The position numbers and the translations under genes were made by a program. Positions 1-45,987 of a stretch of 64,000 bases of DNA are shown in pieces. Under the pieces are notes generated by a model. The model was not told the DNA's origin. It did no database searches and worked only from the letters and a program-made list of their open reading frames with translations. The stretch is from IMG/VR virus record IMGVR_UViG_3300048592_001371, positions 59,554 through 123,553 of that record; one strand, given 5' to 3'. Origin of the DNA: a virus. Each line of letters opens with the position of its first letter. The stretch's first letter is position 1.

Positions 1-2
1 AC

Positions 3-248
3 GAGGAGCTCAGGAAGTCACACTTTGAGACATCTTGTCCTATGCTGTATGCTGAGTCCGAGGACAAAGGACTGAGTCTAAACGTCGTAGCAAAAACAGT
101 GATGGTAGCATACGAAGAACAAATGTCTCGCTTGAAGAAAACGGAGATCATGCGAATGGCGATAACGAACAAAATCGCCAATGCCGAGACAGAGGAACAA
201 GTTCGGGCTCTGTTGAAGGACGTCAAACTCTATTTCTACACGAGATGA
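3..248 (+). CDS. Unknown protein, 5'-truncated at window edge
   Basis: The frame is open to the left edge, so the gene probably begins outside the window; the first internal ATG is at 42. The visible 80 or so residues are helical-looking and charged, with no recognised motif. Its stop overlaps the start of the next gene as ATGA, which suggests translational coupling to the PP-loop, decarboxylase and APS kinase genes that follow. I cannot assign a function. Confidence 0.6.
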   Translation, partial: EELRKSHFETSCPMLYAESEDKGLSLNVVAKTVMVAYEEQMSRLKKTEIMRMAITNKIANAETEEQVRALLKDVKLYFYTR

Positions 249-1252
249 AACTCCTCAGCTACCACAACAATCCGATGTTCAAGAACAGGACGTTGAATAC
301 ATTCTTCAACGTGCTCAACGTCGAGGCACCTATGTCTAGGTGTTCTTACCAAGGATGCAATGTCCTACCTGTTCATCACTTGTTGCCTCCAATGTCGGAG
401 TATGCAATACGTGTCGTTTCGCAGCCGGGTGCCGAGCTGGAGACGATAGTCGAAGCAAGGGTGCGCGAGCTGGTCAACGAAGCACGCCAATTTGATCTGC
501 CAATTCACCTCAAGTACTCTGGTGGTTTGGACAGCCTGCTCGTGCTGCTCATGTTACATAGGTGTGACGCGGATTTCGTTGTCTATCTGACTCCCGATTC
601 CATCAAAGAGAACCAAGACGTATTCAAGAGATATGTCTCGAACCGAGATTTCAAACACGTCAATTGTCCTAGTCTGTTCGACGGACTGATAATTTCAGGA
701 GACGGGGCCGATGCTCTGTTCATAGACATGCTGGCAACAAGCGTAGTTTCCAAACACGGAGAGACGTCCTTGGATTGGAAATGGGAAGAAGGCTTTGTGA
801 AAGGCATGTACGGAACGGAACAAGAGAACAACGAAGTGCTCGAATTGCTCTTTCCCGCTCTCGACGAATGTCCTTGGGAGGTAGAGACAGTTCGGGACTT
901 CTTCGCTTGGACTGGCCTAGCGATCTTCTACCAGCACGAGACGTATCGTTGGCTTCCGACCATGCCTAATCCGGCAGAGAATTTCGCGCGCTTCCGACCG
1001 TTCTTTCCAACGAAGGATTTCGTCGAATGGTCTTTGGGACAGGAAACGAAGGCCAAGTTTCCGAGCTTCACCGATTACAAACCGGCATTTAGGAAGCTGT
1101 GCGAAAAGCTAACGGGTCTTGACTTTTCCTACATGCGGAAAGACTTTTCGCTGTGGAAGACCGTAGCAGGTAATCGTCTGCATCCCGGTGTCAAAGATGA
1201 TCTCTCGATTGCAACTATCGAAGAAATAGAACAGGCCGCTATCTATCCATGA
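245..1252 (+). CDS. Asparagine synthetase-like PP-loop ATP pyrophosphatase domain protein
   Basis: A 335-residue protein carrying the PP-loop signature SGGLDS at residues 92-97 and a second conserved element, SGDGADALF, at 151-159. In asparagine synthetase B-type C-terminal domains the same pair (SGGLDS, then GDGADELF) binds ATP and adenylates a carboxylate. The N-terminal 85 residues do not look like the class II glutamine amidotransferase domain of AsnB: there is no catalytic Cys at position 2. It would therefore use ammonia, or activate another substrate. The gene overlaps its neighbours by 4 nt on both sides (ATGA) and precedes a PLP decarboxylase and an APS kinase, suggesting one small-molecule pathway. 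QueC was considered, but the C-terminal zinc cysteines are missing and the second motif is AsnB-like. Confidence 0.75.
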   Translation: MKLLSYHNNPMFKNRTLNTFFNVLNVEAPMSRCSYQGCNVLPVHHLLPPMSEYAIRVVSQPGAELETIVEARVRELVNEARQFDLPIHLKYSGGLDSLLVLLMLHRCDADFVVYLTPDSIKENQDVFKRYVSNRDFKHVNCPSLFDGLIISGDGADALFIDMLATSVVSKHGETSLDWKWEEGFVKGMYGTEQENNEVLELLFPALDECPWEVETVRDFFAWTGLAIFYQHETYRWLPTMPNPAENFARFRPFFPTKDFVEWSLGQETKAKFPSFTDYKPAFRKLCEKLTGLDFSYMRKDFSLWKTVAGNRLHPGVKDDLSIATIEEIEQAAIYP

Positions 1253-2355
1253 CCGCAAATCTTCTCGATATGTACAAGCCCTTCGTCGAGGACTATCAAG
1301 GACCGTGTCTTGTCATCGACCGGGCCTCGATTTTCGAGCGCATAAAACGCTTCCTTCGCGCGGTGCCGAACGTCCTCCCGTATTATGCAATGAAGGCGAA
1401 CCCGCATCCCGGTGTTCTACAGACGGTTTCGGACGCGGGTATAAACTTTGACGTTGCCTCGGCAGACGAGATTCTCTTGCTGGAGCGTACTGGTCTGAAC
1501 GTGCGTCATGTGCTGTTCAGCAATCCTGTCAAGAAACCAAGCGACATCGCTTACGCAGCTTGGAATGGCATTCAGAACTATGCAATAGATAGCCAAGAGG
1601 AAATGTTCAAGATACTGTCTATCGTGCCGCACGCCAAGATGTACGTTCGTTTGTCTTTGCCACCCAGCACCGCGGATTCCCCACTCAATGACAAATTCGG
1701 TATTGACTTGTATGAGCTAGAAGGCCTGCTCCGGATAGCTAAAACGGTCAAGGCGGACATCTGTGGAGTAACATTCCACGTTGGCTCTCAATGTCGCTAT
1801 CTCGACAGTTGGGGAGACGCTATAGGAATTGCTCTCAAAGCCGGCGAGATGCTTCTGCGCGAAGGCTTTCGGTTCGAGTTGCTCAACCTGGGTGGCGGCT
1901 TTCCCGTTTCCTACACGCGTCCAATACCTGAGATCGAAGACATTGGTCTGGTGCTGGATAGGCTGTTGCAAGATCTGCCGAAAGAAACACGAGTGGTTGC
2001 CGAGCCGGGACGACACCTGGTTGCGGAATCAGGCATGCTGATCTGCCAAGTAATAGCAACCTCTACGAGGAAGGGTACTCGTTGGGCCTACTTGGATGTC
2101 GGTACATACAACGGATTGGTAGAAACGATCCAAGGCGTTGAGTGTAATTTCTGCTATACGCAAGAAGGCGACACGGATCTTTGGAATGTAGCGGGTCCAA
2201 CGTGTGATTCAAACGACATCATGTCTAAGAGGGTCCGTCTACCCCGGAATCTGGCAACTGGAGATTTTCTCTATGTGCCGAATGCCGGGGCCTATTCGGT
2301 AGCCAGTGCAAGTACATTCTGCGGAGCACACATTCCGGAGGTTATCCTATTGTGA
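1249..2355 (+). CDS. PLP-dependent ornithine/diaminopimelate/arginine decarboxylase family (fold type III)
   Basis: A 368-residue protein with the full set of alanine-racemase-fold decarboxylase motifs. The PLP lysine is K49 in YYAMKANP. These follow: FHVGSQ near residue 178, the glycine-rich phosphate loop NLGGGFP near 223, EPGRHLV near 256, the Cys-Asp active-site element GPTCDSNDI near 316-324, and NAGAYS near 346. Family members decarboxylate ornithine, lysine, arginine, meso-diaminopimelate or carboxynorspermidine, and sequence inspection does not fix the substrate. The length fits a complete enzyme. It is coupled by 4-nt overlaps to the AsnB-like gene before it and the APS kinase after it. 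A polyamine or amine product feeding host metabolism or a phage modification is possible. Confidence 0.88.
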   Translation: MTANLLDMYKPFVEDYQGPCLVIDRASIFERIKRFLRAVPNVLPYYAMKANPHPGVLQTVSDAGINFDVASADEILLLERTGLNVRHVLFSNPVKKPSDIAYAAWNGIQNYAIDSQEEMFKILSIVPHAKMYVRLSLPPSTADSPLNDKFGIDLYELEGLLRIAKTVKADICGVTFHVGSQCRYLDSWGDAIGIALKAGEMLLREGFRFELLNLGGGFPVSYTRPIPEIEDIGLVLDRLLQDLPKETRVVAEPGRHLVAESGMLICQVIATSTRKGTRWAYLDVGTYNGLVETIQGVECNFCYTQEGDTDLWNVAGPTCDSNDIMSKRVRLPRNLATGDFLYVPNAGAYSVASASTFCGAHIPEVILL

Positions 2356-2876
2356 ATCATGGACGCGTACTGTGGCTGACAGGTTTGAGTGGGTCGGGCA
2401 AGACCACTCTGGCTTGGGCACTTGACGAATTCCTACAACGCAAAGGAATTGCTACTTCTGTCATCGACGGAGACGAGATACGCAAAACCCTGTGTAAGGA
2501 TCTGGGGTATACGGCGGAGGACAGAACAGAGAACCAGCGGCGCATCGCAGGACTGGCGAGAAAACAAGCCGATCTCGACCTCACAGTAATCGTGGCCACC
2601 ATCAGCCCGAGATTCAAACATCGGGTACTGGCCGAAGAGATAATCCACCCGATCGACTTCTACGAAATCTACCTAGCCACTCCCCTCGAAGAATGCGAGA
2701 GGCGCGATCCGAAAGGGATGTACGCCAAAGCCAGAAGAGGGGAGATCAGTGCCTTCACCGGAGTTACCGATCCGTATGAGGAACCCGAACACCCCGATGT
2801 GAAAATCCCTCCGTCTTTCTCCCTCCGAGAAGCACTTCAAGCAATCGAACGGTCTGTCCGTTTCACGATTCTCTAG
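2352..2876 (+). CDS. cysC: Adenylylsulfate (APS) kinase
   Basis: A 174-residue protein that starts with GTG overlapping the previous stop (GTGA). The Walker A motif GLSGSGKT is at residues 11-18. It is followed by the APS kinase elements DGDEIRKTL, GYTAEDRTENQRR, an ISP motif (ATISPRFKHR) and the C-terminal KGMYAKARRGEISAFTG, then DPYEEPEHPDV. This is the arrangement of CysC, which phosphorylates adenosine 5'-phosphosulfate to PAPS. Length is close to stand-alone family members. It is the last gene of a coupled operon ending at a terminator-like hairpin. In a phage the product could serve sulfation or sulfur assimilation, or the kinase may have been recruited to another hydroxyl substrate. 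Confidence 0.9.
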   Translation: MNHGRVLWLTGLSGSGKTTLAWALDEFLQRKGIATSVIDGDEIRKTLCKDLGYTAEDRTENQRRIAGLARKQADLDLTVIVATISPRFKHRVLAEEIIHPIDFYEIYLATPLEECERRDPKGMYAKARRGEISAFTGVTDPYEEPEHPDVKIPPSFSLREALQAIERSVRFTIL

Positions 2877-12450: not shown

Positions 12451-12855
12451 ATGGACACTATAGTCATTCTTCTGAAAGGTATAGATACGCTGGCCGTCAT
12501 CCTAGCCCTTCTTGTTTTGTCTTTCGGCATTCTGGCGTGGCGCTCCACCCGCAATAAGGAGCAGCGTTTCGACTTCGAGGAGCTATTCCTTGACGAGGTT
12601 GGACGCACTTCCCTATACAAGCTTGGTCAGTTCATAGCCCTGTGCTTTTCGACGTGGGGTTTTGTCTATCTGACGCTGGCGTACAAATTGTCGGAATGGT
12701 ACTTCACTGCATACATGGTTGCCTGGGCGGGTGCGAACGTAGCTAACAAGTACATAGAAACGAGGAAGTCGGTGACTCCCATTCCTGACATGAAGAAACC
12801 GGAAGAGAAGAAGGCGGTCAAGGTCAGCGGAACCAAAGACGACGAAGACGATTGA
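12451..12855 (+). CDS. Small membrane protein, holin candidate
   Basis: A 134-residue protein with three predicted transmembrane segments at about 10-30, 57-76 and 82-100. A conserved-looking DFEELFLDEVGRTSLYKLGQ loop lies between the first two, and the tail is highly charged (PEEKK ... KDDEDD). Size, topology and charged C-terminus fit a phage holin, and it stands downstream of possible cell-wall-active proteins. The spanins, however, are 9 kb away, so another membrane role is possible. Its 3' end overlaps the converging primase gene by 32 nt. Confidence 0.55.
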   Translation: MDTIVILLKGIDTLAVILALLVLSFGILAWRSTRNKEQRFDFEELFLDEVGRTSLYKLGQFIALCFSTWGFVYLTLAYKLSEWYFTAYMVAWAGANVANKYIETRKSVTPIPDMKKPEEKKAVKVSGTKDDEDD

Positions 12856-13840
12856 CAACGGCTATAGGCAGGTCGACGGGGTCTATCTTCTTGAAGGGAG
12901 TCTTGCCTTTCTTGATACGGGCCTTGTTCATCCGTTCTTCGATCGCCTTCATGTTTATACTCTTCACTTCCAGCAACCCAGCGCAGGATCGTTTGATTTT
13001 GCGCTGGGCCTTCCTCCCGGCCTCGTCCGAGTCCATCATCAAAACAACGCTCTCGATCCCTATCGCAATCAGCAGGTCGCGCTTCTTCTCGTCCCAATTG
13101 TGTGTCCCTAGAATGGCCACGGCAGGCAGTCCACACGCTATGAGCCGTAGCGCGTCACGGGCCCCTTCCACAATGATGATGCGACGATATTTCCTGGCCT
13201 GTTTCCGAACATGATCTAGCGGGAATAGTCCCTTCTCACGGGCCCAGACGCCCGATGAATTGACATAGGCAAGTATGTCCTTGGTTGGCGGACGTTCCAT
13301 CAGGGCTTTGATGCCTCCAACCATACACTTGTTCACAACGATAGGCAGAAAGACCACTTCATCCTGCGTCTTGGAATCGAGTGCCAGTTGGGCACCTATC
13401 TTGGACAACAGTTGTCCAGGTATGGATCGCCAGTCCATGTGCGTCGGCCAGGACACTACAAATTCCAGACCGAGGTCATCTGTAATGGCGTCGAACGACT
13501 GGGCAATATCGTCCGGTTCAAGCAAATTCTTGTCGATGTCCCGACCATGAAACTCGGTGACTTGATCGTTGCGACCGTTCACCTTCATCAGGCCGAACGC
13601 GTCGGCAAGCTCGTTCCACTTCCCGTGTTTCGTACACCCGAAACAGTAAAATGATCCTATAGGGCGCTTGCTCTTGGGGTCGAGATTGATGATGAGCGAC
13701 GGATCGCTGTCTTTATGGAACGGACAGACAATCATTATCCCGGAAGCGTTCCCCTTCTTGGCTCCGCGAATCCGAGTTACTTCCTGTTCAATAATACGGT
13801 GTGACTCTGAGACGTGGCTACCACGACCGAAAGCGTACAA
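12824..13840 (-). CDS. DNA primase (DnaG/T4 gp61-type, CHC2 zinc finger plus Toprim)
   Basis: A 338-residue protein on the minus strand. The best start is TTG 13840, preceded by AGGAG at 6 nt; a longer GTG-initiated frame to 13897 has no ribosome site. The N-terminal CHC2-type zinc site is C39, H42, C66, C69 (CPFH ... CFGC). The Toprim domain follows, with IIIVEGARDAL (acidic Glu), PAVAILGTHNW and the VVLMMDSDEAG metal-binding DSD. This makes it an RNA-primer-synthesising primase for lagging-strand synthesis. A TGTAAAGTA box lies about 26 nt upstream (13866-13874). It is divergent from the MmcB-like gene and isolated in strand from its neighbours. Confidence 0.9.
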   Translation of the reverse strand: MYAFGRGSHVSESHRIIEQEVTRIRGAKKGNASGIMIVCPFHKDSDPSLIINLDPKSKRPIGSFYCFGCTKHGKWNELADAFGLMKVNGRNDQVTEFHGRDIDKNLLEPDDIAQSFDAITDDLGLEFVVSWPTHMDWRSIPGQLLSKIGAQLALDSKTQDEVVFLPIVVNKCMVGGIKALMERPPTKDILAYVNSSGVWAREKGLFPLDHVRKQARKYRRIIIVEGARDALRLIACGLPAVAILGTHNWDEKKRDLLIAIGIESVVLMMDSDEAGRKAQRKIKRSCAGLLEVKSINMKAIEERMNKARIKKGKTPFKKIDPVDLPIAVVNRLRRLWFR

Positions 13841-13865
13841 GGCGTACTCCTGTTTTTTGACAAGA

Positions 13866-13874
13866 TACTTTACA
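13866..13874 (-). promoter_or_regulatory. Promoter-like box TGTAAAGTA upstream of primase
   Basis: The minus strand reads TGTAAAGTA, a variant of the recurring TGTAAATA box, ending 26 nt before the primase TTG start. It also lies at the very start of the divergent + strand gene. The same nine bases recur at 14774-14782 (minus strand) in the non-coding region. Confidence 0.45.
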
Positions 13875-13876
13875 AG

Positions 13877-14533
13877 ATGAAACCCAAGAAAGAACACTAC
13901 GAACGATTGAGGTACTACCTGGCGAATCGTGTGTATTCACCACGGTCCATGTCCAACATCGACATAGATTTGCTGAATTACGGGTGGATACTGCCGTCTA
14001 CCCAACCCGGAATCAAAGGTTTTTTGGCTTCCCCGGTCGGTATCCAGGCATTCAAAGAACTACGCCGGAAGCAATCGACCAAGTTTGATACCCATAACAC
14101 GTTAGCGTCCCGTCTGGCACAGTATCTTCAAGCCCGGAACAGGATCACCTACGAGAACATAGAGCTAAAGGCTGAGTATGAAGGACGTATTAGACCATGC
14201 CGGCCTGACGTCTTTTCCCTGATGTGCACGTACAAGGCTACCAAGTTGCACCCTTTCATCCACGAAGTGAAGGTGTCGCGAGCAGATTTTCTGAACGAAG
14301 TGAAGAACGGGAAGAAACTCTATCTGTACTCGCAGTTAGCCGAACGGGTTTTCTTCGTTACGCCTGCGGACTTGGTAACGAAACAGGAAATACCGGAAGA
14401 CTTGGGGTTGATCTACGAGACGAAGCCAAACACATTCCGACTTGTCAAAAGAGCCGTTCAGAACAAAGTTCCTAGGTATCGTACTGCGATGTGGATGAGA
14501 TTGGTACTGAAGAAAGGAAGTACTGCTAGATAG
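13877..14533 (+). CDS. MmcB-like protein (PD-(D/E)XK nuclease-fold, DNA repair type)
   Basis: A 218-residue protein starting at ATG 13877; no clear ribosome site is seen and a GTG at 13814 is the alternative. The C-terminal half shows EYEGRIRPCRPDVFSLMC, HPFIHEVKVSRADF, then KLYLYSQLAERVFFVTP and IPEDLGLIY. This order (R-x-D, E-x-K, Y, fyf-vp, P-GL) is that of MmcB family proteins, which have a restriction-endonuclease-like fold and DNA-repair links in bacteria. Candidate catalytic residues are the Asp of RPDV and the Glu/Lys of HEVKVS. The N-terminal 90 residues are basic and may contact DNA. Confidence 0.7.
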   Translation: MKPKKEHYERLRYYLANRVYSPRSMSNIDIDLLNYGWILPSTQPGIKGFLASPVGIQAFKELRRKQSTKFDTHNTLASRLAQYLQARNRITYENIELKAEYEGRIRPCRPDVFSLMCTYKATKLHPFIHEVKVSRADFLNEVKNGKKLYLYSQLAERVFFVTPADLVTKQEIPEDLGLIYETKPNTFRLVKRAVQNKVPRYRTAMWMRLVLKKGSTAR

Positions 14534-15212: not shown

Positions 15213-16175
15213 ATGTTCGGAAAAGAATCGGTTCAGAAGGAATTCGCCCGCGCCTATCAGAAGGCCATGTCGGAAACCTTGGAGTTGCGCTTGTCTGATC
15301 TCACAGAGGAAGAGCAGAAGGAGTACTGGCACTACGACAAGAGATTCTCACCCTCCTCATTCCCGTTCTGTGGTTTGCGCCGTATCTACATGCGCCTCAT
15401 TGCTGAGGCCAATCCCTTGGTCTACGACAGTTTTTCCGGCGACTATTTCCGGAACGTAGGAATCGTTGCCCATACGGTACTTCAGCGCTGGTTGTCTCGG
15501 CAAGGAAGTTTCATAGGCGATTATGTCTGTCTGGACTGCAAGCACCGACATGAGTTCACTACCTGGCCCGGGAAGTGCAAGAAGTGCGGCTCAATACGAG
15601 TAGAGCACAAGGAATTGGGTGGGAAGTACGGCGGCCACATGGGTTGGAAAAGCGACCACGTATTCCAGACAAAGAAAGGGAAGCTCTACATTGTCGACTA
15701 CAAGACAACTACGTCCTATCAGATTGCAAATCACAAGAAGGACGGGAAGACGTTTCCTTACGTCGGCAATCGCATCCAGGCTGAATCCTACGTACCTTTA
15801 GCCGAGGATCGGTACAAACGAAAATTTGCGGGGTGCATCTTGGCCTACGCAGCACGGGACAATCCGATCTACAACATAGCTATCGTCACGATAGAGATGG
15901 ACGCCGAGAGAAAAGACGAGCTGCGTAAGCGCATGAAGAAGTGGCACAGACAGTTCGAGCTGGCCCTCGTGCCGACTGTCGAGAACGTGAAGATACTGCA
16001 TAAGCAAAAGCTCTGTTGCGACAAACAGTTCTACAAAGAGAACGTCGCCAATGCCTACAACCCGTGTCCGCTTTCCAAGGTTTGCTTCAAGCGCGAGAAG
16101 TTGGTTCTTGAGTTGAAAGCCGCGCTGAAGACGTATCGGAAGAATCAGTCACAGACTGTAAATAAAGCCAAGTAA
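15213..16175 (+). CDS. Cas4/RecB-like PD-(D/E)XK exonuclease with zinc ribbon
   Basis: A 320-residue protein. The nuclease core shows GGHMGWKSDHVFQTKKGKLYIVDYKTTT (quoted in part), giving the motif II Asp of SDH, motif III D-x-K of VDYKTT, and QAESYVPL as the QxxxY motif. A zinc ribbon is inserted near residues 108-128 (C-x2-C ... C-x2-C, CLDC ... CKKC). An N-terminal cysteine (FCGLRR) and a C-terminal cluster (CC ... CPLSKVC) match the split 4Fe-4S cysteines of Cas4/AddB-type nucleases. It would resect or process DNA ends. It heads the island containing QueD, DpdA and QueE, under a clear promoter-like box. Confidence 0.8.
   Translation: MFGKESVQKEFARAYQKAMSETLELRLSDLTEEEQKEYWHYDKRFSPSSFPFCGLRRIYMRLIAEANPLVYDSFSGDYFRNVGIVAHTVLQRWLSRQGSFIGDYVCLDCKHRHEFTTWPGKCKKCGSIRVEHKELGGKYGGHMGWKSDHVFQTKKGKLYIVDYKTTTSYQIANHKKDGKTFPYVGNRIQAESYVPLAEDRYKRKFAGCILAYAARDNPIYNIAIVTIEMDAERKDELRKRMKKWHRQFELALVPTVENVKILHKQKLCCDKQFYKENVANAYNPCPLSKVCFKREKLVLELKAALKTYRKNQSQTVNKAK
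16157..16164 (+). promoter_or_regulatory. Promoter-like box TGTAAATA upstream of queD
   Basis: TGTAAATA inside the last codons of the nuclease gene, ending 26 nt before the QueD start codon. Same sequence and similar spacing as at other DNA-metabolism genes in this window. Confidence 0.5.
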
Positions 16176-16190
16176 CGTCAGGAGACAGAC

Positions 16191-16664
16191 ATGCCCGAAG
16201 GTTTCACAGTATCTTGTTCCATTTCACGCACGGTTGCCGAACGCTATCACGACATTAGCTGCGGACATCGCGTCTACGGACATGAATCAAAATGTGCCCA
16301 CTTGCACGGTCACAACTACCGCGTCCACTTCACGGTTGAGGCACCGGAGTTGGACCACGTTGGACGCGTGATGGACTTCTCGGTCATCAAGTCGCATCTT
16401 TGCATGTGGCTGGAAGACAATTGGGATCACAAATTCCTGATATGGGAAAACGACCCCGATGCGCTCACATTGCAGAGAATCGATCCCGAGGGCGTAGTGA
16501 TCGTTCCGTTCAACCCAACCGCTGAGAACATGGCCAAATATCTGGTTGATGACGTAGGTATTCGTCAATTGACCGCTACGGGTTGTAGGCTCGTCAAGGT
16601 TCGTATCGAGGAAACTGCGAAGTGCAGCGCGTCCTTTATGCGCGGAGAAGAGGTTCGCATATGA
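16191..16664 (+). CDS. queD: 6-carboxy-5,6,7,8-tetrahydropterin synthase (QueD)
   Basis: A 157-residue protein preceded by AGGAGA. It has the PTPS/QueD fold signature: zinc histidines H26, H39 and H41 (the latter two in HLHGHNY), catalytic C35 in KCAHLHGHNY, then GRVMDFSVIK, DNWDHKFL and PTAENMAKYL. QueD converts dihydroneopterin triphosphate to CPH4, the second step towards preQ0. With QueE and DpdA downstream it points to 7-deazaguanine insertion into phage DNA. Neither GTP cyclohydrolase (FolE) nor QueC is in the window; they may lie elsewhere in the genome or come from the host. Confidence 0.92.
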   Translation: MPEGFTVSCSISRTVAERYHDISCGHRVYGHESKCAHLHGHNYRVHFTVEAPELDHVGRVMDFSVIKSHLCMWLEDNWDHKFLIWENDPDALTLQRIDPEGVVIVPFNPTAENMAKYLVDDVGIRQLTATGCRLVKVRIEETAKCSASFMRGEEVRI

Positions 16665-17626
16665 GCATCAAGACAGGCGACTACGTCCTCGCAAGCATTG
16701 ACAACAAGAAGAAGCTTGTGCACGTGACAGGAGTAGGAGACGGGAAGTTCAACGGCGTTCTTGACCACAACCGGGCCTACGCTCCGGAGAACGTGAAGTA
16801 CAAGCTGTCGAGCGTTGTCGCCAACCTCGGTCCCGATCCCGCGCCCGGAGCCGCGTATGGATGCTTGATCGAACCGTATCGTCGTTCCTTCTCGTACAAG
16901 GACTGGGGTGATATCCATACGCATGTCAAGGCCGACAAAGCTATCCAGGAAGCCATTCGCGCCGGACTGGACAAGACATACGCCATTCTGAAAAAGTACA
17001 AACTCACGGGCTTCCTACCTATCGACATTGAGATTCGCCCCAAGAAGGGTGTTCATGCCGGATCATGGACAAGGTCGAAGAAGGACAAGCGCTCCTTGAT
17101 GATCCTTCGGTCGCGGGAGGATTGCATTGCGATGTATCCACAGCTTGTGATGCACGAAGCGGCACACGGGATTTGGTACAACTGTGTCCCACTAGCCTAC
17201 AAGGCGAAGTGGATCAAGCTCTATCACAGCTACTTGCGCTTCTCCAACATCACCGTCAAGGATCTCGAATCCATCAAAGACAGTTTCTTCGATCAACCGC
17301 AGCCCGTGAGAGAATTCCAGGGACAACTTGAGGAAGAGGACGCCTTCTTGTTCAAGAAGGTACTGGATTGGATCAAAGACAATCACCGCATGACGACGAG
17401 GCACCTTGACGAAATCGTGCTGTCCGGGGAAACAGAATTTCTGGAGAAGCTCTGGCCTACTTACGAGATGCTCGTCACAGATTGCGAAGTTGTTATTTCC
17501 GACTACGCTCGCAAAAGCGTTGAGGAATTCTTCGCAGAAGCTGTGTCGTTTCATCTGATGTCCAAGATCAAACTGCCCAAGAAGATAGTCACGGCAGTAG
17601 AAAAGACGCTACAGGCAAGCAAATGA
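16661..17626 (+). CDS. Putative HExxH metalloprotein in the DpdA island
   Basis: A 321-residue protein. ATG 16661 overlaps the QueD stop (ATGA) and is preferred over a longer frame. A zincin-type HEAAH motif lies at residues about 166-170 in QLVMHEAAHGIWYN, followed far downstream by a possible third ligand region with Asp/Glu (VEEFFAEAVSFHLM near 300), the arrangement of gluzincin-like metallopeptidases. An N-terminal SH3-like segment (KTGDYVLASIDNKKKLVHVTGV) is possible. The ATGA couplings to queD before it and dpdA after it tie it to the modification pathway, though its substrate is unknown. Confidence 0.6.
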   Translation: MSIKTGDYVLASIDNKKKLVHVTGVGDGKFNGVLDHNRAYAPENVKYKLSSVVANLGPDPAPGAAYGCLIEPYRRSFSYKDWGDIHTHVKADKAIQEAIRAGLDKTYAILKKYKLTGFLPIDIEIRPKKGVHAGSWTRSKKDKRSLMILRSREDCIAMYPQLVMHEAAHGIWYNCVPLAYKAKWIKLYHSYLRFSNITVKDLESIKDSFFDQPQPVREFQGQLEEEDAFLFKKVLDWIKDNHRMTTRHLDEIVLSGETEFLEKLWPTYEMLVTDCEVVISDYARKSVEEFFAEAVSFHLMSKIKLPKKIVTAVEKTLQASK

Positions 17627-19128
17627 AAAAAGAGAAGAAGGCCAAGAAGGGAAAATACAGCATCATCCCAGCCGCGTACAGCTACCTCAAGTTCGGAGGC
17701 ATTGGGCTGTACGTTCGGTACGCCAGAAGCAAGGTCAAAGAAGTCCATGTGAAGGAGAAGAAGTCAGACTACATCTGGCTGGAAACTCCAGACAGGGAAT
17801 TGTTGATCGTCAGCAACCTGAACAAGGAACTTCCCTTCTATCCGACCGAAGGTACGTTCGACGAATTCGTACCGGTCAGCCTGTTTCACCCGACGGCGAA
17901 CGATTTCGATTTTGACTTCTGCATGGTTAATTTCACAGAACATGCAATCGAGAAAGGCCCTCGTCAAAATCCCGGATTGAGGCTGGACAGGGAAACTTCC
18001 CACATTCAGATCATGTCGGATAGCGGTGGTTTCCAGTTACGGACAGGCGCCGCCGACTATATCAACCCCATCGAGCTTGCCGAGTGGTGTAACGACAACG
18101 TCAACATGACGATGGCGCTCGATATCCCCGTCTTGTACAACGACCGTGACTTGCTGAAACGCTCAGCACGCATTCAGAAGCGCAACAACGAAGTTATGCT
18201 CGAGCACGCACACCCGGAAATGGAACTTATCAACATTGTTCACGGCGCAAGCTGGGCAGAACGGAAAGAGTTCCTAACCTGGGTGGACAACGAGAAGATC
18301 GATCGACTCGCTATGGGTAGTGGTCTGGATCTGGGCGTGCTAGCAAATACGATCGGCCTAATGGATCTGATTCTTACGTCACGGCCATTCAAGCATTACC
18401 ACATTTTGGGTGTGTCGAATGCGCTGAGAATCATCCCGTTGATGCGGGCCGCCCATCATGGAATGGCGCCGCTGATTACGTCTGATTCCACGACGTACAT
18501 CATGCGGGCTACCGCTCGGATGTTCCTCAATTTTGAGACACTGATTTCCAAGCATACGACCACACCGATTGGTACGCAGCTGGCTTCTCGCAATGTGAAC
18601 AACCGAACGGACGTGCATTCATTGCTCCCGTGCTCCTGCGCCATTTGCAGTAGAATCCGCTATATGGACGTGTTCTCCTTGTTTGGAGGTCCCGTACATG
18701 CCTTGCTGTCGACGCATAACATGATCAAGTTCAACAGCTACCTCCAGGCCATGCAAGATTACATGCATTTGCCGTTCAAGGAGCTGAAGGAGATCTTGGT
18801 AGCTCAGCACAAAGGACATTTGGATCTTGACGAGAGCCTGCGTTCCGTGCAGTTCATCGACGAGATCGTAGATACGAACATTGCGAAGGCGGTGACAAAA
18901 TTCAGCCGGTACAAGGCCCGTTCCCGCTACGATCAGTTCGGGAGCAACAAGCACTTTGCCAAGAACAATTCTCTTTGGGGAGGGGAATATACAGGAACAG
19001 AACCGGCAGAGCTTGCTGGACAATCGAAAGTGAAACAGCTGGATCGTTTGAAACAGGTGTTATCCATGTATGAAAATCCGAAGTCGCTGAAACGTCCAAC
19101 AACAATCAAGAAAGGAAGGGGAGGTTGA
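17623..19128 (+). CDS. dpdA: DpdA, phage DNA-guanine transglycosylase (TGT superfamily)
   Basis: A 501-residue protein. The TGT-fold active-site segment SDSGGFQLR lies at about residues 132-140, with the general catalytic Asp. It is followed by MTMALDIPVLY, and the region around residues 264-272 (HYHILGVSN) corresponds to the conserved glycine-rich substrate loop. A zinc site CSCAIC lies near 336-341, with a later STHN histidine near 366, matching the C-x-C-x2-C...H of tRNA-guanine transglycosylases. TGT relatives next to QueD/QueE genes in phages are DpdA, which exchange guanine in DNA for a 7-deazaguanine such as preQ0. It starts in a 4-nt overlap with the HExxH gene. The modification likely protects against restriction. 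Confidence 0.88.
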   Translation: MKKEKKAKKGKYSIIPAAYSYLKFGGIGLYVRYARSKVKEVHVKEKKSDYIWLETPDRELLIVSNLNKELPFYPTEGTFDEFVPVSLFHPTANDFDFDFCMVNFTEHAIEKGPRQNPGLRLDRETSHIQIMSDSGGFQLRTGAADYINPIELAEWCNDNVNMTMALDIPVLYNDRDLLKRSARIQKRNNEVMLEHAHPEMELINIVHGASWAERKEFLTWVDNEKIDRLAMGSGLDLGVLANTIGLMDLILTSRPFKHYHILGVSNALRIIPLMRAAHHGMAPLITSDSTTYIMRATARMFLNFETLISKHTTTPIGTQLASRNVNNRTDVHSLLPCSCAICSRIRYMDVFSLFGGPVHALLSTHNMIKFNSYLQAMQDYMHLPFKELKEILVAQHKGHLDLDESLRSVQFIDEIVDTNIAKAVTKFSRYKARSRYDQFGSNKHFAKNNSLWGGEYTGTEPAELAGQSKVKQLDRLKQVLSMYENPKSLKRPTTIKKGRGG

Positions 19129-19130
19129 CA

Positions 19131-19646
19131 ATGACCATTATTCGCCGAGAGCTTTCGACACGTAGTCCTGAGACAAATCACAGTCTCAGTGCCGTGCTGG
19201 AGCTAGACGTTCCTCAAGGAACGCGACTCCCGTGGAGTTCTTGGTTGTACTCCGTGGAACGAGCCTTGTCCTACATGCTCGAATTTGCGTTGAAGAGCCG
19301 TCAGCTTGATTTGACGAACGACCTGTCCCGCCTCGCGTATCTGGTCAAGGATCAAATGCTTCCGCGCGAGCCAATGTCGTGTCTTTCGATGAACGTGACC
19401 AACTTTACGTTCGTCGCCCGTTACCAGATTGGTAAGGAAAATATCTCATTCGCCGTCACCCTTTTCTGGAACTACAAGGGGAATTTGAAGGCGACTCCAT
19501 TAGGAGATGTAAAAGATGCCTCTCAAGATTGCTCAGATACTCAAGGCCTCCACACCACAGCAGATGGACGGATCCGACTATGTGCAGATACGATCGGTAA
19601 AAAGCGGCGTGTTCAAAAAGACAAACACGCGGATTGTAAAATGTAA
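19131..19646 (+). CDS. Unknown protein downstream of DpdA
   Basis: A 171-residue protein starting at ATG 19131, preceded by GGAAGGGGAGG. Two nucleotides separate it from the DpdA stop. The first 125 residues look like a compact alpha/beta fold. The last ~43 residues are encoded in the 131-nt out-of-frame overlap with the SWIM-type gene and are low in hydrophobicity, so they may be a dispensable tail. No family is recognised. Confidence 0.65.
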   Translation: MTIIRRELSTRSPETNHSLSAVLELDVPQGTRLPWSSWLYSVERALSYMLEFALKSRQLDLTNDLSRLAYLVKDQMLPREPMSCLSMNVTNFTFVARYQIGKENISFAVTLFWNYKGNLKATPLGDVKDASQDCSDTQGLHTTADGRIRLCADTIGKKRRVQKDKHADCKM

Positions 19647-19962
19647 GACGCTGTCAATAGCGACACCGGACGGAACTCCGAAGAAGAAACGCAAGGTCTA
19701 CACTTCCGTGGTCTACGGCGTTACGCCCCCTGACAAGAAAACGGGGAAGTACTTCAAATTGTCTGACAGCCAGGTCAAGGTTTCGTGCAATTGCGACGCC
19801 TTCGTTTTTCAGGGTGGTGAGTGGGCGCTCTGGAAGCACGGAGCCGCGGACATTGTCTACGGCAATGGACGTCCACCAGACGTTCGCAATCCTCGTTACC
19901 GGCCTTGGGCATGCAAACACTTAATCAAAGTCATGAAAGAGATTCTTCGGAGGCGTGTCTGA
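19516..19962 (+). CDS. SWIM-type zinc-binding protein
   Basis: A 148-residue protein preceded by TTAGGAGATG. The C-terminal half has C91-x-C93 (SCNCDAFVF) and C133-x-H135 (WACKHLIKVM), the CxC...CxH ligand pattern of SWIM zinc fingers, separated by a 39-residue insert containing WALWKHGAADIVY and a Pro-rich stretch. SWIM domains bind DNA or proteins. A gene of this type in a DpdA operon could target the transglycosylase to DNA, which is inference. It overlaps the previous gene by 131 nt and the next by 1 nt. Confidence 0.7.
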   Translation: MPLKIAQILKASTPQQMDGSDYVQIRSVKSGVFKKTNTRIVKCKTLSIATPDGTPKKKRKVYTSVVYGVTPPDKKTGKYFKLSDSQVKVSCNCDAFVFQGGEWALWKHGAADIVYGNGRPPDVRNPRYRPWACKHLIKVMKEILRRRV

Positions 19963-20480
19963 TGCTGCCTTATGACAAGATCGCGTCTGAGACGACTATC
20001 AAGCTTGCCATCCATCGCATCGCCGGCCGACTCAACCATCGCTTCTGTGACAGACGAGAAATACCGGTGCTGATGCCCGTCATGCTGGGCAGCTTCATGT
20101 TCTTCGCTCGTTTGCTCCCGTATCTCAAGTTTGCCTATGACGTGGATTATGTCCACGCCACCCGATATGCGGACAACAAACCCGGCGAGCTGACATGGAT
20201 CAAGGAACCTAACTGTCCCTATCCCGGTCGTGACATCGTTGTTCTGGATGACATATTGGACGAGGGGATAACCCTGTCCGCTATCAAGACAACGCTGTTG
20301 GACAAGTACGAGGTTGCCTCGGTAATGTGCGTCGTCCTTTTCGACAAGATGATCCAATACCCTAAGACAATCAAGCCCGACCTGTTCGGTCTAACTGTTC
20401 CAAATCGCTACGTCTTCGGATTCGGCCTCGATCACCAAGGCCATGAAAGACACCACACCAGCCTGTATGCCTTGAGATAG
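19962..20480 (+). CDS. Purine-type phosphoribosyltransferase
   Basis: A 172-residue protein starting at ATG 19962 (overlapping TGA). A longer upstream frame would overlap the SWIM gene and is rejected. The PRPP-binding signature VVLDDILDEGITL lies at residues 93-105, preceded by strand-loop segments PVMLGSFMFFARLL and DYVHATRY, as in hypoxanthine-guanine PRTases. The enzyme would join a purine-like base to PRPP. In this operon it may salvage guanine displaced by DpdA or act on a deazaguanine base. Both are inference. Confidence 0.85.
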   Translation: MLPYDKIASETTIKLAIHRIAGRLNHRFCDRREIPVLMPVMLGSFMFFARLLPYLKFAYDVDYVHATRYADNKPGELTWIKEPNCPYPGRDIVVLDDILDEGITLSAIKTTLLDKYEVASVMCVVLFDKMIQYPKTIKPDLFGLTVPNRYVFGFGLDHQGHERHHTSLYALR

Positions 20481-20488
20481 GAGAACAA

Positions 20489-21277
20489 ATGCAGCACACT
20501 GTTCAGTTTGTTGATAACAACATTGCCACGCGTGACTACTCACATATCAAAAAGAACCACCTCCTCGTCACGAGCGTGTTCTACACCGTACAAGGCGAAG
20601 GACCGCATGGGGGCATCCCGGCCGTCTTCATTCGACTTGCCGGCTGCAACCGGGGAATCAAGCGGGACTGCTGGTTCTGCGATACCAATTTTTTGTTCGC
20701 CGAGGGTACTCAACGCTCCTACACGGATCTGTTGGAAGAGATCGGCAAGCGGCAGGTTCGGCCCAGCCTGGACAAACCCCTCATAGTCATCACAGGGGGC
20801 GAACCGCTTCTGCAAGAAACCAATCTGGCTCCCTTCGTACATGAGCTTTGCGTCAATGGGTACCAAGTTCAAGTTGAAACGAACGGTGACCGGCTGCGCT
20901 TGAATTCGTTGCCGCGTGCCCTGATCGTAATGAGTCCGAAAGCCTCGATGCGGGCTAAGCGCTATACCAAACCGCACAAAGAGGCCCTAGAGAGGGCGGA
21001 TTACCTCAAGTTCCTGCTCGAAGCCAAAGAGGGCCCCTATCATGATGTAGCCGACTATGCGACTGACTTTGCTGACAGGAAAGGTTCCTATCGCGTCTTC
21101 CTCAGCCCGATTTCCGAATACGCTCGGGACATAGTACCGGGCGAAACCGCCAGCATGTGGACAGGTCTATACGACCGCGACATAGCGCGCATCAATCATA
21201 GCTATGCGGCTCGTTACGCTATGAAGTATGGCTACAGACTCAGCATGCAACAGCATCTGTATTGCACGGTAGAATGA
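20489..21277 (+). CDS. queE: 7-carboxy-7-deazaguanine synthase (QueE, radical SAM)
   Basis: A 262-residue protein preceded by TAGGAG. The QueE start motif FYTVQGEGPHGGIPAVFIRLAGC is visible in residues 31-53. The 4Fe-4S cysteines are C53, C61 and C64, a CX7CX2C spacing instead of the CX3CX2C of canonical radical SAM enzymes; QueE proteins are known to vary here. VITGGEPLLQ follows for SAM binding, and VETNGDR for the substrate. QueE converts CPH4 to CDG, the precursor of preQ0. The C-terminal ~70 residues are longer than I expect for a minimal QueE. Confidence 0.92.
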   Translation: MQHTVQFVDNNIATRDYSHIKKNHLLVTSVFYTVQGEGPHGGIPAVFIRLAGCNRGIKRDCWFCDTNFLFAEGTQRSYTDLLEEIGKRQVRPSLDKPLIVITGGEPLLQETNLAPFVHELCVNGYQVQVETNGDRLRLNSLPRALIVMSPKASMRAKRYTKPHKEALERADYLKFLLEAKEGPYHDVADYATDFADRKGSYRVFLSPISEYARDIVPGETASMWTGLYDRDIARINHSYAARYAMKYGYRLSMQQHLYCTVE

Positions 21278-21280
21278 TAA

Positions 21281-22330
21281 ATGAAGGGTAGCCACGTCCT
21301 CAACGTATTGAAATCAGTCACAGAAAGAATAGATGTCAATCACACCAGTGGACAGCTATTCGAGGTCCTGGACACCCTTCTCTACCGGGCGATCGACCCG
21401 ATTATCGAGAACTCGAATTACGTCGATCGCATGCTGAGTATCGTACTGGCCTGGTACACTCAGAATCAGCGTCGCAAGATATCACCCCTCCCCAAAGAAC
21501 GCTTCAACACCTACGTCATCGCCTTCCTGACGACCAAAGACGTAACGCTGCGGAAGAAAATCTACCGTCGCCTTGGTCTAGAGCGGAACATTACCTTCTT
21601 CATCGTCAGCCGTTGGTTGCAACTCCTGCGTCCGTGGCAAGATCTTCATATCCGACATACGCGAGGCGAGCCTGTTTTGCAGGAAATGGCCTCGATAGAG
21701 AGAAGCGTTCTGGTCTTCAACAACCATAATCTTTTCGCTATCATCCAAGAAGCAAAATGTTGGTACGAGAAATCGAGCGATTTCAAGCAGCGTCTCTTGG
21801 AGAAGTACATGCGCTTCATCATGCTCGAAGCGCTTCATCATTACAAAGCCCAACAGCTTCACAATCCCCACCTTCGCTTAGAGCTAGACGAGGTAGCACA
21901 GAACTTTGTCCTGGCTACCTACAAGGCCATCGACAAGTTCGACGCCAACCGAGGTACTCTCACCACGTACATCCAGAACTGGCTGAAGAACGCGAAGGTG
22001 TCAAACCACTTCCGGCATGAGTACGGAACGGCGTACAACATCCCACACAGCCGAAAAATGAAGATCGCTTCCAAAAGCGATACCACCACGAACAATCTGT
22101 ACGTTGAACTAGACAAAGAGGAGGTACTCGAAGTCGCCGACGAGCTTTCGGTAGAAGCCGACGTCGTGCGTCGCAATGAGATAGACTTCATCCGCATGCT
22201 GGCCAAAGAAGCAGACCCCGAAGGAATAGGTCGAATGTTTTTGGGGATAGGCGAATACTTCCCTACTCCCAACTTTGTAAATAAACACGAAGCACACAGC
22301 ACCACAGCAACAACCGCATCCACCTCTTGA
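21281..22330 (+). CDS. Sigma-70 region 2-like transcription factor
   Basis: A 349-residue protein starting 3 nt after QueE. Residues about 195-245 read LDEVAQNFVLATYKAIDKF and onward DANRGTLTTYIQNWLKNA, closely resembling sigma region 2.2-2.4 (LIQEG...GLMKAVDKFD...G..FSTYA..WIR.A). Flanking helices could be region 1.2/3 equivalents, and the N-terminal 190 residues are helical without a family match. It is probably a phage-encoded sigma factor (functional analogue of T4 gp55) that redirects host RNA polymerase. Its C-terminus lacks an obvious -35-binding helix-turn-helix, which would suit promoters defined by a single -10-like box. Confidence 0.65.
   Translation: MKGSHVLNVLKSVTERIDVNHTSGQLFEVLDTLLYRAIDPIIENSNYVDRMLSIVLAWYTQNQRRKISPLPKERFNTYVIAFLTTKDVTLRKKIYRRLGLERNITFFIVSRWLQLLRPWQDLHIRHTRGEPVLQEMASIERSVLVFNNHNLFAIIQEAKCWYEKSSDFKQRLLEKYMRFIMLEALHHYKAQQLHNPHLRLELDEVAQNFVLATYKAIDKFDANRGTLTTYIQNWLKNAKVSNHFRHEYGTAYNIPHSRKMKIASKSDTTTNNLYVELDKEEVLEVADELSVEADVVRRNEIDFIRMLAKEADPEGIGRMFLGIGEYFPTPNFVNKHEAHSTTATTASTS
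22276..22283 (+). promoter_or_regulatory. Promoter-like box TGTAAATA upstream of the SSB gene
   Basis: TGTAAATA followed by AACAC, inside the 3' end of the sigma-like gene, ending 60 nt before the SSB start. It is farther upstream than at most other sites, leaving room for an untranslated leader. Confidence 0.45.
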
Positions 22331-22343
22331 TAGGAGATAATAA

Positions 22344-23693
22344 ATGCCTAAGATGGAACGCAAGACCGGCTTTGCCGGGGTAAAACCGCCACGGCGTGGC
22401 GGTAACAATGGGCCCAAGATGGAAGAGCTTTTTGACGTTCTCCAATGGCCCAAGAAGCCAGAGTACGTCGCATTCCGGTTCGTGCGCGAGGACCTTTTGG
22501 TTTCGGAAGGAGTCCACAAGGTCAAGATTCGCAAGAAAGACGGACAGGTGATCGAGATCACCAAGAAGTGCCTGGCCTACGATCCGGACACTCAAGAACG
22601 GGACAGCACCAAGAAATGTCCGTATTGCAAACTGGAGAACGCTCGTTTCTCCATGCGCTACTTTGCCAACGCAATCGTTCGTGACGTGCAAGAGAACGCA
22701 CCCCGGAAGCAGAAGCCACTGACCAAGGAAGAGAAGAAAACAGGCTTCAAGGATATCAATTCCGAATCCTGGACGCCTGTCCGGGTTGTTCGCATTCCCG
22801 CAACGGTGGCTGACAAGTTGCGCGAAATCGGCGAAAGGAACATTGTTAAGAAGGGCGACAAGAAGAAGTCGTTCTCCGTCACGCATCCGCAATACGGCAT
22901 CGACATCTCCATTCGTTTCGATCCGAAGAAACCCGGCACTGAGATGTACTCCGTGGACAAAGGAGAGCGCTCTCCTCTGACCGAGGAAGAGGAAGCTTAC
23001 TTGCTGTGGGATCTGACCAAGCTCCCACCCGTCGAAAGTCTTGAAGATGCCAAGGCGGAAGCTAAGAGCCTAGGCGAGCGCAACCCGGATGCCAAGAAGG
23101 GTAAGGGTCGCGATGAAGACGACGAGGACGAGGACGAAGATGATGACGAGGACGAAGACCTGAAGAAAAAGAAGGGTAAGGGCAAGTCCAAATCGAAACA
23201 CGATTCCGACGATGATGACGACGACGAGGACGAGGACGAAGAAGACGAGGACGACGAGGACGAAGAAGACGAAAAGCCCTCGAAGAAGTCGAAGTCCAAG
23301 AAGTCAAAATCGAAGTCCGACGACGAAGACGACGACGAATTAGACGACGAGGACGAGGAAGACGAAGAAGACGACGAGGACGAAAAGCCCTCGAAGAAAT
23401 CCAAGTCCAAGAAGTCGAAGTCAAAGTCAAAGAAATCGTCCGACGACGACGAGGAAGAAGACGATGATGACGAGGACGAAGACGACGAGGAGGAGGAAGA
23501 CGAAAAGCCCTCGAAGAAGTCGAAATCGAAGTCCAAGTCCAAGTCAAAGAAATCGTCCGACGATGACGATGACGATGACGACGATGACGACGATATAGAC
23601 CTCGATGACATGGACGAAGACGAGGAAGAAGACGAGGACGAAGAAGACGAAAAGCCCTCGAAGAAGTCGAAGTCCAAGAAGTCAAAGAAGTAA
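22344..23693 (+). CDS. gp32-type single-stranded DNA-binding protein with giant acidic/lysine tail
   Basis: A 449-residue protein preceded by AGGAGATAA. The core (about 1-235) parallels T4 gp32. Putative zinc ligands H58, C76, C92 and C95 (KKCPYCK) follow the His/Cys/Cys/Cys order of gp32. YFANAIVRDVQ aligns with YWANILV, and GIDISIRFDPKKPG follows. The C-terminal ~205 residues are low complexity: Asp/Glu blocks alternating with four near-identical KPSKKSKSK-type blocks. gp32-type proteins use a short acidic tail to recruit replication partners; here it is several times longer and mixed with Lys/Ser. It lies between the sigma-like and RecA genes, consistent with a replication/recombination role. 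Confidence 0.8.
   Translation: MPKMERKTGFAGVKPPRRGGNNGPKMEELFDVLQWPKKPEYVAFRFVREDLLVSEGVHKVKIRKKDGQVIEITKKCLAYDPDTQERDSTKKCPYCKLENARFSMRYFANAIVRDVQENAPRKQKPLTKEEKKTGFKDINSESWTPVRVVRIPATVADKLREIGERNIVKKGDKKKSFSVTHPQYGIDISIRFDPKKPGTEMYSVDKGERSPLTEEEEAYLLWDLTKLPPVESLEDAKAEAKSLGERNPDAKKGKGRDEDDEDEDEDDDEDEDLKKKKGKGKSKSKHDSDDDDDDEDEDEEDEDDEDEEDEKPSKKSKSKKSKSKSDDEDDDELDDEDEEDEEDDEDEKPSKKSKSKKSKSKSKKSSDDDEEEDDDDEDEDDEEEEDEKPSKKSKSKSKSKSKKSSDDDDDDDDDDDDIDLDDMDEDEEEDEDEEDEKPSKKSKSKKSKK
23268..23690 (+). repeat. Imperfect tandem repeats encoding the SSB tail
   Basis: The 20-mer GACGAAAAGCCCTCGAAGAA occurs at 23268, 23379, 23499 and 23646 (111, 120 and 147 nt apart), each time followed by Lys/Ser codons and then by a GAC/GAA-rich block. 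The array can expand or contract in frame and would be prone to slippage and assembly collapse. Confidence 0.85.
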
Positions 23694-23709
23694 CAGGTGT
23701 GGTGCGTTA

Positions 23710-23743
23710 GCGGGAGCCTCTTAGACGGGGTTCCCGCCTTTTT
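23710..23743 (+). terminator. Rho-independent terminator after SSB
   Basis: GCGGGA (23710-23715) pairs with TCCCGC (23732-23737), with additional GCC/GGG pairing inside, followed by CTTTTT. It sits between the SSB stop and the RecA/UvsX start, so the abundant SSB message could be insulated from the next gene. Confidence 0.8.
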
Positions 23744-23757
23744 GCAGAGGTATTCAC

Positions 23758-25155
23758 ATGGTCGCTCGAAAGAAAACGACTCGCGTAGAAAAAAGAAGCA
23801 AAAAAGCGAGTGAGGCAAAACCTAAATTTGCGTTCGACTACGGCGCCATCCTAGGCGACGTAGAGAAGAAATTTCGCATTACTTCCGGCTACGCCTCTAA
23901 TGTGGATCGGATGCATAGTGGCTCTTTGATTCTTGATCTGCTAACGGCAGGAGGAATCTACCCGGGACGCTGGTACTCCTTCATCGGAAAAGAAGCTTCA
24001 GGTAAGTCCACGGCCCTCATGTCTATAGCGGGCGCTTCTATTACGGCGAATGTCCCTCTTCGTCTCTACTATGACTTCGAAGGCTCGGTCGAAACTGGGT
24101 ATTTCTCGCAGATGCTTCCCATGAAGATATCCGTAGACGATCTCTTCGGTGTGAAGGACGCGAAGACAGGGAAGTACGTCAAGCGTGGTTTGATTGACCA
24201 CTACACTCCGGATGTGGCTGAAACGTTCTTCGATTCCGTAGCTTCCTTGCTCCGTCGCATGCCGGACAAGGTATTCGTCAAGGAGCGGAACAAGTGGTAT
24301 CTGGTGTTCGAGGACAACAAGCAGAACAAGACGTACAAAGAGCACTCTGACAGGTCTCTGTCTGGCGATGGCCATATCTACGTTGAAGCTGAGGACGGTT
24401 CGCCCCAGGCCGTGATATTCCTCGATTCGTATCCAGCAATGCTACCGGATCGTTTGGATGAAGACGATGCTGGTAGCGGTATGGCAGCCCAGGCCCGAAT
24501 GTTCTCCGAACAACTCAAGAAGGTTCGGCCAAAGTTGCGTCGCAAACACGTCACCGTTATCGGCGTCAATCAACTTCGTATGCGTCCGGGACCCAGCTTT
24601 GGAAACCCTGAATACGAGCCGTGTGGCGAGGCAGTGAAATTCGTAACCGACGGCCGTGTCATCATGCGCGCTGTATCCATTCCCAAGCACGCAGTCGGTA
24701 CTGGCAAAGTAGCAGAGGAAGACTCCGTCCTTTCAAAAGGGAATGACTCCTACCGCTACATCAAGTGCCAGATGGCTAAGAACAAAATGGGTCCGAATTT
24801 CCGCGAAGGCTACCTCCGTGTTTGGATGGACGATCCGAAAGGAAAAGGCCACGGCTTTGACCCAGTCTTTGACGTCTGGGAGTACCTGCATCTGACAGGT
24901 CAACTCAATGGCAACATGAAGAAATTCGAGATCACTATTGCCGAGACCAAAAAGACGTACAAGATGTCTTGGTACGATCTCAAAGAGCTTGTGCTGTGCA
25001 AAGGCGATGCTCTGAGGAAAGTGCATAAGAAGCTCAAACTCAAGGAACGGCTTGACCTGCGGAAGATAGCTCGGAGGCAGCTCAAAACTGGTGCCTCCGA
25101 ACTGCTCTATTCGGAAGCCAAGAACAAGGGCAAAGAGAAACCAACGGAGGAATGA
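23758..25155 (+). CDS. uvsX: RecA/UvsX-like recombinase
   Basis: A 465-residue protein with ribosome site AGAGG. After a basic N-terminus (about 20 residues, KKTTR ... KRSKK), the RecA core shows Walker A GKEASGKST at 77-85 with the catalytic-Glu segment YYDFEGSV, Walker B VIFLDSYPAM near 222-231, and an L2-like region near 265-282 (VIGVNQLRMRPG). Order and size fit phage UvsX-type recombinases, with a longer C-terminal domain. It would load on SSB-coated DNA and drive strand exchange for recombination-dependent replication. A dedicated UvsY loader was not recognised. Confidence 0.88.
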   Translation: MVARKKTTRVEKRSKKASEAKPKFAFDYGAILGDVEKKFRITSGYASNVDRMHSGSLILDLLTAGGIYPGRWYSFIGKEASGKSTALMSIAGASITANVPLRLYYDFEGSVETGYFSQMLPMKISVDDLFGVKDAKTGKYVKRGLIDHYTPDVAETFFDSVASLLRRMPDKVFVKERNKWYLVFEDNKQNKTYKEHSDRSLSGDGHIYVEAEDGSPQAVIFLDSYPAMLPDRLDEDDAGSGMAAQARMFSEQLKKVRPKLRRKHVTVIGVNQLRMRPGPSFGNPEYEPCGEAVKFVTDGRVIMRAVSIPKHAVGTGKVAEEDSVLSKGNDSYRYIKCQMAKNKMGPNFREGYLRVWMDDPKGKGHGFDPVFDVWEYLHLTGQLNGNMKKFEITIAETKKTYKMSWYDLKELVLCKGDALRKVHKKLKLKERLDLRKIARRQLKTGASELLYSEAKNKGKEKPTEE

Positions 25156-45647: not shown

Positions 45648-45665
45648 GTTGAGGTAAAGATTTCG

Positions 45666-45720
45666 CAGGGTGCAAGACCGTAAGACAAAGCCCTGTAACC
45701 CGCCCGAGAGGGCAATTACA
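45666..45720 (+). promoter_or_regulatory. Structured leader RNA with alternative hairpins
   Basis: CAGGG (45666-45670) can pair with CCCTG (45691-45695). Alternatively TGTAA (45694-45698) pairs with TTACA (45716-45720) around an inner GCCC-GAGA-GGGC stem-loop. The two structures share the bases TG at 45694-45695 and so compete. The second ends directly at the ribosome site GGAGAG of the next gene. It may tune translation of that small protein. No known riboswitch class is recognised. Confidence 0.45.
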
Positions 45721-45730
45721 GGAGAGTATC

Positions 45731-45979: not shown

Positions 45980-45987
45980 CAGTAGGT

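Follow-up and report, generated by a model that had tools for sequence, protein, structure and literature searches.

A purine phosphoribosyltransferase in a deazaguanine island

Why would a virus keep a purine phosphoribosyltransferase (PRTase) gene among genes predicted to place a 7-deazaguanine in DNA? The question is raised by a stretch of 64,000 nucleotides (the window; positions 59,554 to 123,553 of the 123,553-base virus record IMGVR_UViG_3300048592_001371), in which an hpt-like gene lies in an island with queD, dpdA and queE. The record has no end repeats and is thus probably a fragment; the sizes of its named relatives are in the range of about 195-280 kb. Judging from sequence, we consider it fairly probable that the hpt product (HPRT) recycles the guanine released by DpdA to GMP and so pulls the base exchange forward. 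The four genes are as follows.

16191-16664, plus strand: queD, 6-carboxytetrahydropterin synthase (phrog_2389, PF01242, C-x3-HGH motif)
17623-19128, plus strand: dpdA, guanine exchange enzyme of the tRNA-guanine transglycosylase (TGT) fold (profile match to 1iq8, TGT/DpdA fold, catalytic Asp and zinc residues)
19962-20480, plus strand: hpt-like purine PRTase, proposed to salvage released guanine (NF006605, PDB HPRTs, betaproteobacterial relatives)
20489-21277, plus strand: queE, 7-carboxy-7-deazaguanine synthase (phrog_2076, 4njg)

The island of QueD, TGT-fold DpdA and QueE (16191-21277), proposed in a preliminary description made from the letters alone, is real and its motifs are intact; all the gene positions given there across 15213-21277 also hold. 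In family searches QueD matches phrog_2389 (E=1e-51) and the PTPS family PF01242 (2.7e-26), and its C-x3-HGH motif is intact (CAHLHGHNY in P0002). QueE matches phrog_2076 (3.3e-40) and PDB entry 4njg (3.9e-16), and an alignment shows its three radical SAM cluster cysteines, C53-x7-C61-x2-C64, to be conserved with the QueE of Achromobacter phage Motura. Neither FolE nor QueF was found in the 123.6-kb record, itself a fragment, and the sole QueC match in this searched fragment is weak (15.9 bits). That match, at G000:46722, was rejected, as it is an N-type pyrophosphatase open reading frame (ORF) of another gene cluster and is without the zinc cysteines. QueD and QueE alone could lead to 7-carboxy-7-deazaguanine and, with a host or unsequenced QueC, to preQ0.

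The single DpdA sequence has no Pfam match and just a weak one to TIGR00432 (1.7e-5); as a query it found nothing in IMG/VR, and a profile was used instead. The profile of seven phage DpdA relatives matches the archaeosine TGT 1iq8 (4.7e-11) both around DSGGFQ/LDIP and across the CxCx2C...H zinc site, and D133 (in DSGGFQ), D288, C337, C339, C342 and H365 are invariant in the 7 sequences. The AlphaFold model (mean pLDDT 77, pTM 0.81) matches tRNA TGTs in Foldseek at about 1e-9 (1j2b, 4.8e-10) and the DNA preQ0 insertase DpdA 7ui4 at 1.2e-7. By profile and predicted structure, the window DpdA thus has the TGT fold, strongly diverged in sequence. The ranking of the tRNA enzymes above 7ui4 would suit a transglycosylase that acts on tRNA rather than DNA and alters translation in infection. 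We regard this as quite improbable, since the sequence is very divergent from TGT, like that of known phage DpdA (PMC6884629), and the relative in phage immuto is annotated by its depositors as a DNA guanine transglycosylase.

The PRTase gene sits between a SWIM gene and queE. Its product matches the HGPRT family NF006605 (2.7e-46) and Pribosyltran (2.6e-17), and at 157.2 bits it does not reach the NCBIfam equivalog cut-off of 181; it is best taken as a divergent NF006605 member, with guanine as a presumed substrate among the 6-oxopurines. Alignments including PDB HPRTs show that the PRPP (phosphoribosyl pyrophosphate) loop DDILDEG, the HATRY loop and the conserved C-terminal Asp and Arg are all kept. 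In 84,980 genomes the nearest relatives found are hpt genes on the chromosomes of Betaproteobacteria, Rhodocyclaceae among them, with about 45% identity over the whole length, which suggests that the window HPRT was probably acquired from a betaproteobacterium; that a betaproteobacterium is also the host of the virus is a guess. As PRTases convert nucleobases to nucleotides, and as linkage with queE and folE is tight, the enzyme might instead act on the 7-deazaguanine base, giving a nucleotide for polymerase incorporation or for storage. This is very improbable in our view: the active-site motifs are those of an ordinary HPRT, a TGT-type DpdA is present and hence the free base is required, and 6-oxopurine PRTases use N7 in catalysis and should therefore ignore a 7-deaza product.

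Association of PRTase genes with que and dpdA

To see how far the PRTase follows DpdA, we compared 54 lineage records over their full length, of which 47 had been chosen by RecA and 7 are named relatives. PF00156 occurs in 6 and DpdA in 19 of these records; the PRTase is present in 6 of the 19 DpdA-positive and in none of the 35 DpdA-negative ones (P = 0.001, Fisher's exact test; 0.0002 for the 47 RecA-picked records alone). After collapsing at 90, 80, 70 and 60% RecA identity, with the window added as positive for both, the P values are 0.004, 0.006, 0.017 and 0.046, respectively. In two records (L340 and L341) the PRTase lies directly upstream of queC-dpdA, followed by queE and folE, and in a third (L337) the HPRT gene is 3 kb from queD.

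The association is also evident beyond the lineage. The DpdA profile recovered 72 IMG/VR loci, and among the 41 with a length of at least 12 kb, a gene of HPRT or XGPRT type is present in 19. In 50,697 records searched with XGPRT-type queries, matches came from four named phage lineages and from a single faecal contig that lacks annotation; in the same kind of search, HPRT-type queries matched only records resembling host fragments. Flavobacterium phage immuto has the order QueD-QueE-PRT-FolE-DpdA-QueF, Synechococcus phage BUCT-ZZ01 has QueE-XGPRT-hypothetical-QueD-FolE with DpdA close by, and in PA5oct-like phages, which also encode DpdA, the PRTase directly precedes QueE. HPRT- or XGPRT-type genes thus recur inside or beside the que/dpdA clusters of unrelated phages (immuto, BUCT-ZZ01, PA5oct and marine contigs). 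By best match the PRTases belong to at least three NCBIfam types (PRK09162, TIGR01203 and PRK09177) and were therefore recruited more than once. Taken together, the HPRT types diverge too far for one profile to be used in scanning. When PRTases from DpdA loci were used as anchors in IMG/VR, que/dpdA genes were found within 10 kb in 48 of 48 HPRT-type and 48 of 49 XGPRT-type contigs, compared with 10 of 64 RecA-anchored contigs, counting only contigs that reach 12 kb. In all 157 cases the nearest que/dpdA gene shares the strand of the PRTase; the median gap is 0.8-0.9 kb, and the distance is usually within 1.5 kb.

Several points weigh against guanine recycling as the role of these PRTases. DpdA loci were the source of the queries in the PRTase-anchored scans, and clustering at 60% identity leaves 1-2 groups of hits; the linkage is therefore tight within those clades and stands for few independent events, not 96. 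No PRTase is seen in 13 of the 19 DpdA-positive lineage records, so it is optional. It lies far from the que/dpdA genes in L338 and L339, and in Cellulophaga phage phiST, which has QueE and in which the window-type profile found no DpdA, it is 20 kb away. A host hpt or gpt could salvage the guanine itself. Finally, a tRNA substrate is compatible with the DpdA sequence, from which action on DNA is a prediction. The distant genes of L338, L339 and phiST, together with an orotate-PRTase-like gene that L337 carries near its HPRT (L337:9982-10614), would fit a gene for general purine salvage in large phages, serving nucleotide supply in infection and lying near que genes through metabolic gene clustering. 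We think this unlikely, though it is the alternative that deserves most weight, because the PRTase never occurs without DpdA among the 54 lineage records, because of the strand and spacing found in the anchored contigs, and because immuto, BUCT-ZZ01, L340 and L341 have it within the que operon.

A proposed guanine-recycling cycle

TGT-type enzymes work by base exchange and free one guanine per event, and one GTP is spent per deazaguanine through FolE. In the scheme that we favor, queD, dpdA, hpt and queE would have been inserted into a conserved block of a jumbo-phage-like virus. QueD and QueE, with a host or unsequenced FolE, would make 7-carboxy-7-deazaguanine, perhaps converted to preQ0 by a host or unsequenced QueC. 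DpdA would put the deazaguanine base in place of guanine in phage DNA, and HPRT would use PRPP to turn the freed guanine into GMP, which would go back to the GTP pool supplying further deazaguanine and DNA. With guanine removed the leaving group would be gone, and the reversible exchange would be driven forward. The HExxH, SWIM and Cas4-like proteins encoded in the same operon would have no further part. Each biochemical step of this scheme, including the identity of the base, action on DNA and the use of DpdA-released guanine by the PRTase, is predicted here from the genes. Among the roles raised in the preliminary description for the added genes, recycling of the released guanine is the best supported for the PRTase, whereas making, placing or proofreading the base by the HExxH, SWIM and Cas4-like proteins found no support.

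It is about an even call whether this extends to purine PRTases as an accessory recruited again and again, and separately, by phages that modify DNA through base exchange. In that reading DpdA-ejected guanine would pass through GMP and GTP back to deazaguanine in a nearly closed loop, which would be pulled forward, and the need for it should scale with modification density. Should repeated recruitment of HPRT or XGPRT by phages serve to deal with ejected guanine, free guanine would be a genuine burden on base exchange or inhibit it, and a PRTase gene would then predict the densest guanine replacement among phages and mark deazaguanine clusters. The fate of the ejected guanine appears to be unaddressed so far in the literature that we searched, and no link between PRTases and DpdA was found there; an earlier mention is possible in a 2023 paper, which reportedly describes further DpdA subfamilies. 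Phage DpdA systems are already known; the PRTase beside them is, as far as we found, new. Hutinet et al. 2019 (PMC6884629) proposes the same guanine-releasing exchange for DpdA, and the PRTase goes unmentioned in it.

The conserved block around the island

The other genes of the region, including those interleaved with the island, are as follows.

12824-13897, minus strand: primase-like gene, bounding the conserved block on the left (where GR7B, GR11A and KoPa-5 have their minus-strand DNA primase)
15213-16175, plus strand: Cas4-like nuclease, lineage core gene in the same operon but outside the pathway (phrog_1706; present in dpdA-negative relatives)
16661-17626, plus strand: HExxH zincin-like protein, lineage core gene (phrog_17197, 75 named phage records, HE..H)
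19131-19646, plus strand: unknown ORF with a 131-nt overlap with the SWIM gene (no relatives found, weak coding signal)
19516-19962, plus strand: SWIM-like zinc protein, lineage core gene (phrog_18980; 57 of 64 RecA-anchored contigs)
21281-25155, plus strand: sigma factor, SSB and RecA, bounding the conserved block on the right (phrog_17569, phrog_15004 and phrog_97)

As described before, 4-nt ATGA overlaps join queD to the HExxH gene (at 16661) and the HExxH gene to dpdA (at 17623); the SWIM and HPRT genes share a 1-nt TGATG overlap at 19962. Every ORF of the island scores as coding in its own frame, the one at 19131 being the weakest. This ORF has no relatives in four libraries or among 16,351 ORFs, and over its 131-nt overlap the coding signal is in the SWIM frame only. 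The HExxH protein matches phrog_17197 "peptidase" (2.1e-61), and its HE..H residues are unchanged across 10 relatives; a structure search gave no informative neighbor (best E=8e-4, TM 0.26), and its identity goes no further than zincin-like. The SWIM protein matches phrog_18980 (7e-16), with Pfam SWIM below threshold (E=0.11), and the Cas4-like protein matches phrog_1706 (8e-16). A defense-system reading was rejected, as PADLOC gives just weak superfamily matches. The SSB gene (window 22344-23693) encodes a very long tail of acidic and Ser-Lys repeats, which generates long spurious ORFs on the minus strand.

The 4-nt overlaps, and the fact that dpdA directly precedes the SWIM gene in several relatives, would fit the expanded deazaguanine system of the preliminary description, with roles for the HExxH, SWIM and Cas4-like proteins in synthesis, placement or proofreading of the modified base. 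We consider such roles most improbable, since the distribution of the three genes largely refutes them. The order primase, Cas4-like, HExxH, dpdA, SWIM, sigma, SSB, RecA is shared, with some genes missing or moved, by the dpdA-bearing Vibrio phages GR7B and GR11A, Pseudomonas phage KoPa-5, Xanthomonas phage PhiXhv and Motura. Without dpdA, BcepSauron has HExxH, thymidylate synthase, SWIM, sigma, SSB and RecA, Alexandraviruses have Cas4-like, SWIM, sigma and SSB, and PaBG, Lu11 and HRDY3 have HExxH. Of the 64 contigs with a length of 12 kb or above from a RecA-anchored scan, 57 hold SWIM, 26 Cas4-like and 9 DpdA, and named phage records hold HExxH in 75, SWIM in 85 and DpdA of the window type in 18. 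Because the three genes are kept with the same neighbors in dpdA-negative relatives, we read them as core genes of a jumbo-phage lineage block. The preliminary description had named occurrence of the added genes in related phages that lack dpdA as a ground for giving up its proposal, and this holds for these three; the PRTase, in contrast, does not occur without dpdA among the 54 lineage records. By the same comparison queD, dpdA, hpt and queE look like variable insertions in the primase-Cas4-HExxH-SWIM-sigma-SSB-RecA block.

The relatives show further variation. In one (L111:9015-11154), queD and queE lie downstream rather than upstream of RecA, with no dpdA on the fragment examined. The QueD-like proteins of Motura and PhiXhv (L007:6432-6878 and L004:15590-16054) have HGY where the window QueD has HGH, so that the zinc motif is altered, perhaps with a different function. 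Stand-alone asparagine-synthase-like ATP pyrophosphatases occur near the block in PaBG and Salmonella phage Sen-NF (L008:8464-9288 and L014:14175-15050). Sen-NF (L014, PV359490) is a 108-kb record with the Cas4-SWIM-sigma-SSB-RecA block as in 260-kb jumbo phages; IS605-type transposase genes adjoin the block, and the record size or assembly may be odd.

A second cluster, downstream of tail-fibre-like genes, spans window 1-2876 and L017:5108-19801 (about 45,100-62,400 of the record). It encodes three paralogous radical SAM proteins of about 488 amino acids, one with a weak B12-binding match, together with an N-type pyrophosphatase ORF, a sulfotransferase, a GNAT acetyltransferase, an Orn/DAP-type PLP decarboxylase and an APS kinase, and possibly serves small-molecule or virion-surface modification.

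Comparison with known systems

The closest known systems are the phage DpdA/FolE-QueDEC modifications of 9g, CAjan and nt-1 (PMC6884629), which share QueD, QueE and a TGT-family DpdA with the window and in which the host can supply missing steps; the window differs in that no folE, queF or convincing queC was found in its 123.6-kb record, probably a fragment, and in the HPRT gene added inside the operon. Motura (MN094788), whose deazaguanine cluster has been noted (PMC7824862), is of the same lineage and shares HExxH, QueD-like, DpdA, QueE, SWIM, SSB and RecA. However, it has FolE, QueC and an AsnB-like gene, no PF00156 PRTase, and a DpdA only 21% identical. The betaproteobacterial hpt genes, those of Rhodocyclaceae included, are of the same NF006605 type as the window gene, but they are chromosomal, cellular purine-salvage genes outside any phage modification operon. 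Immuto (NC_055915), an unrelated phage, likewise has a PRTase between QueE and FolE and near DpdA, although its PRTase is XGPRT-like rather than an HPRT and QueF is present. Similarly, the cyanophage BUCT-ZZ01 (ON615601) carries a PRTase within its que cluster with DpdA close by, again an XGPRT and not an HPRT.

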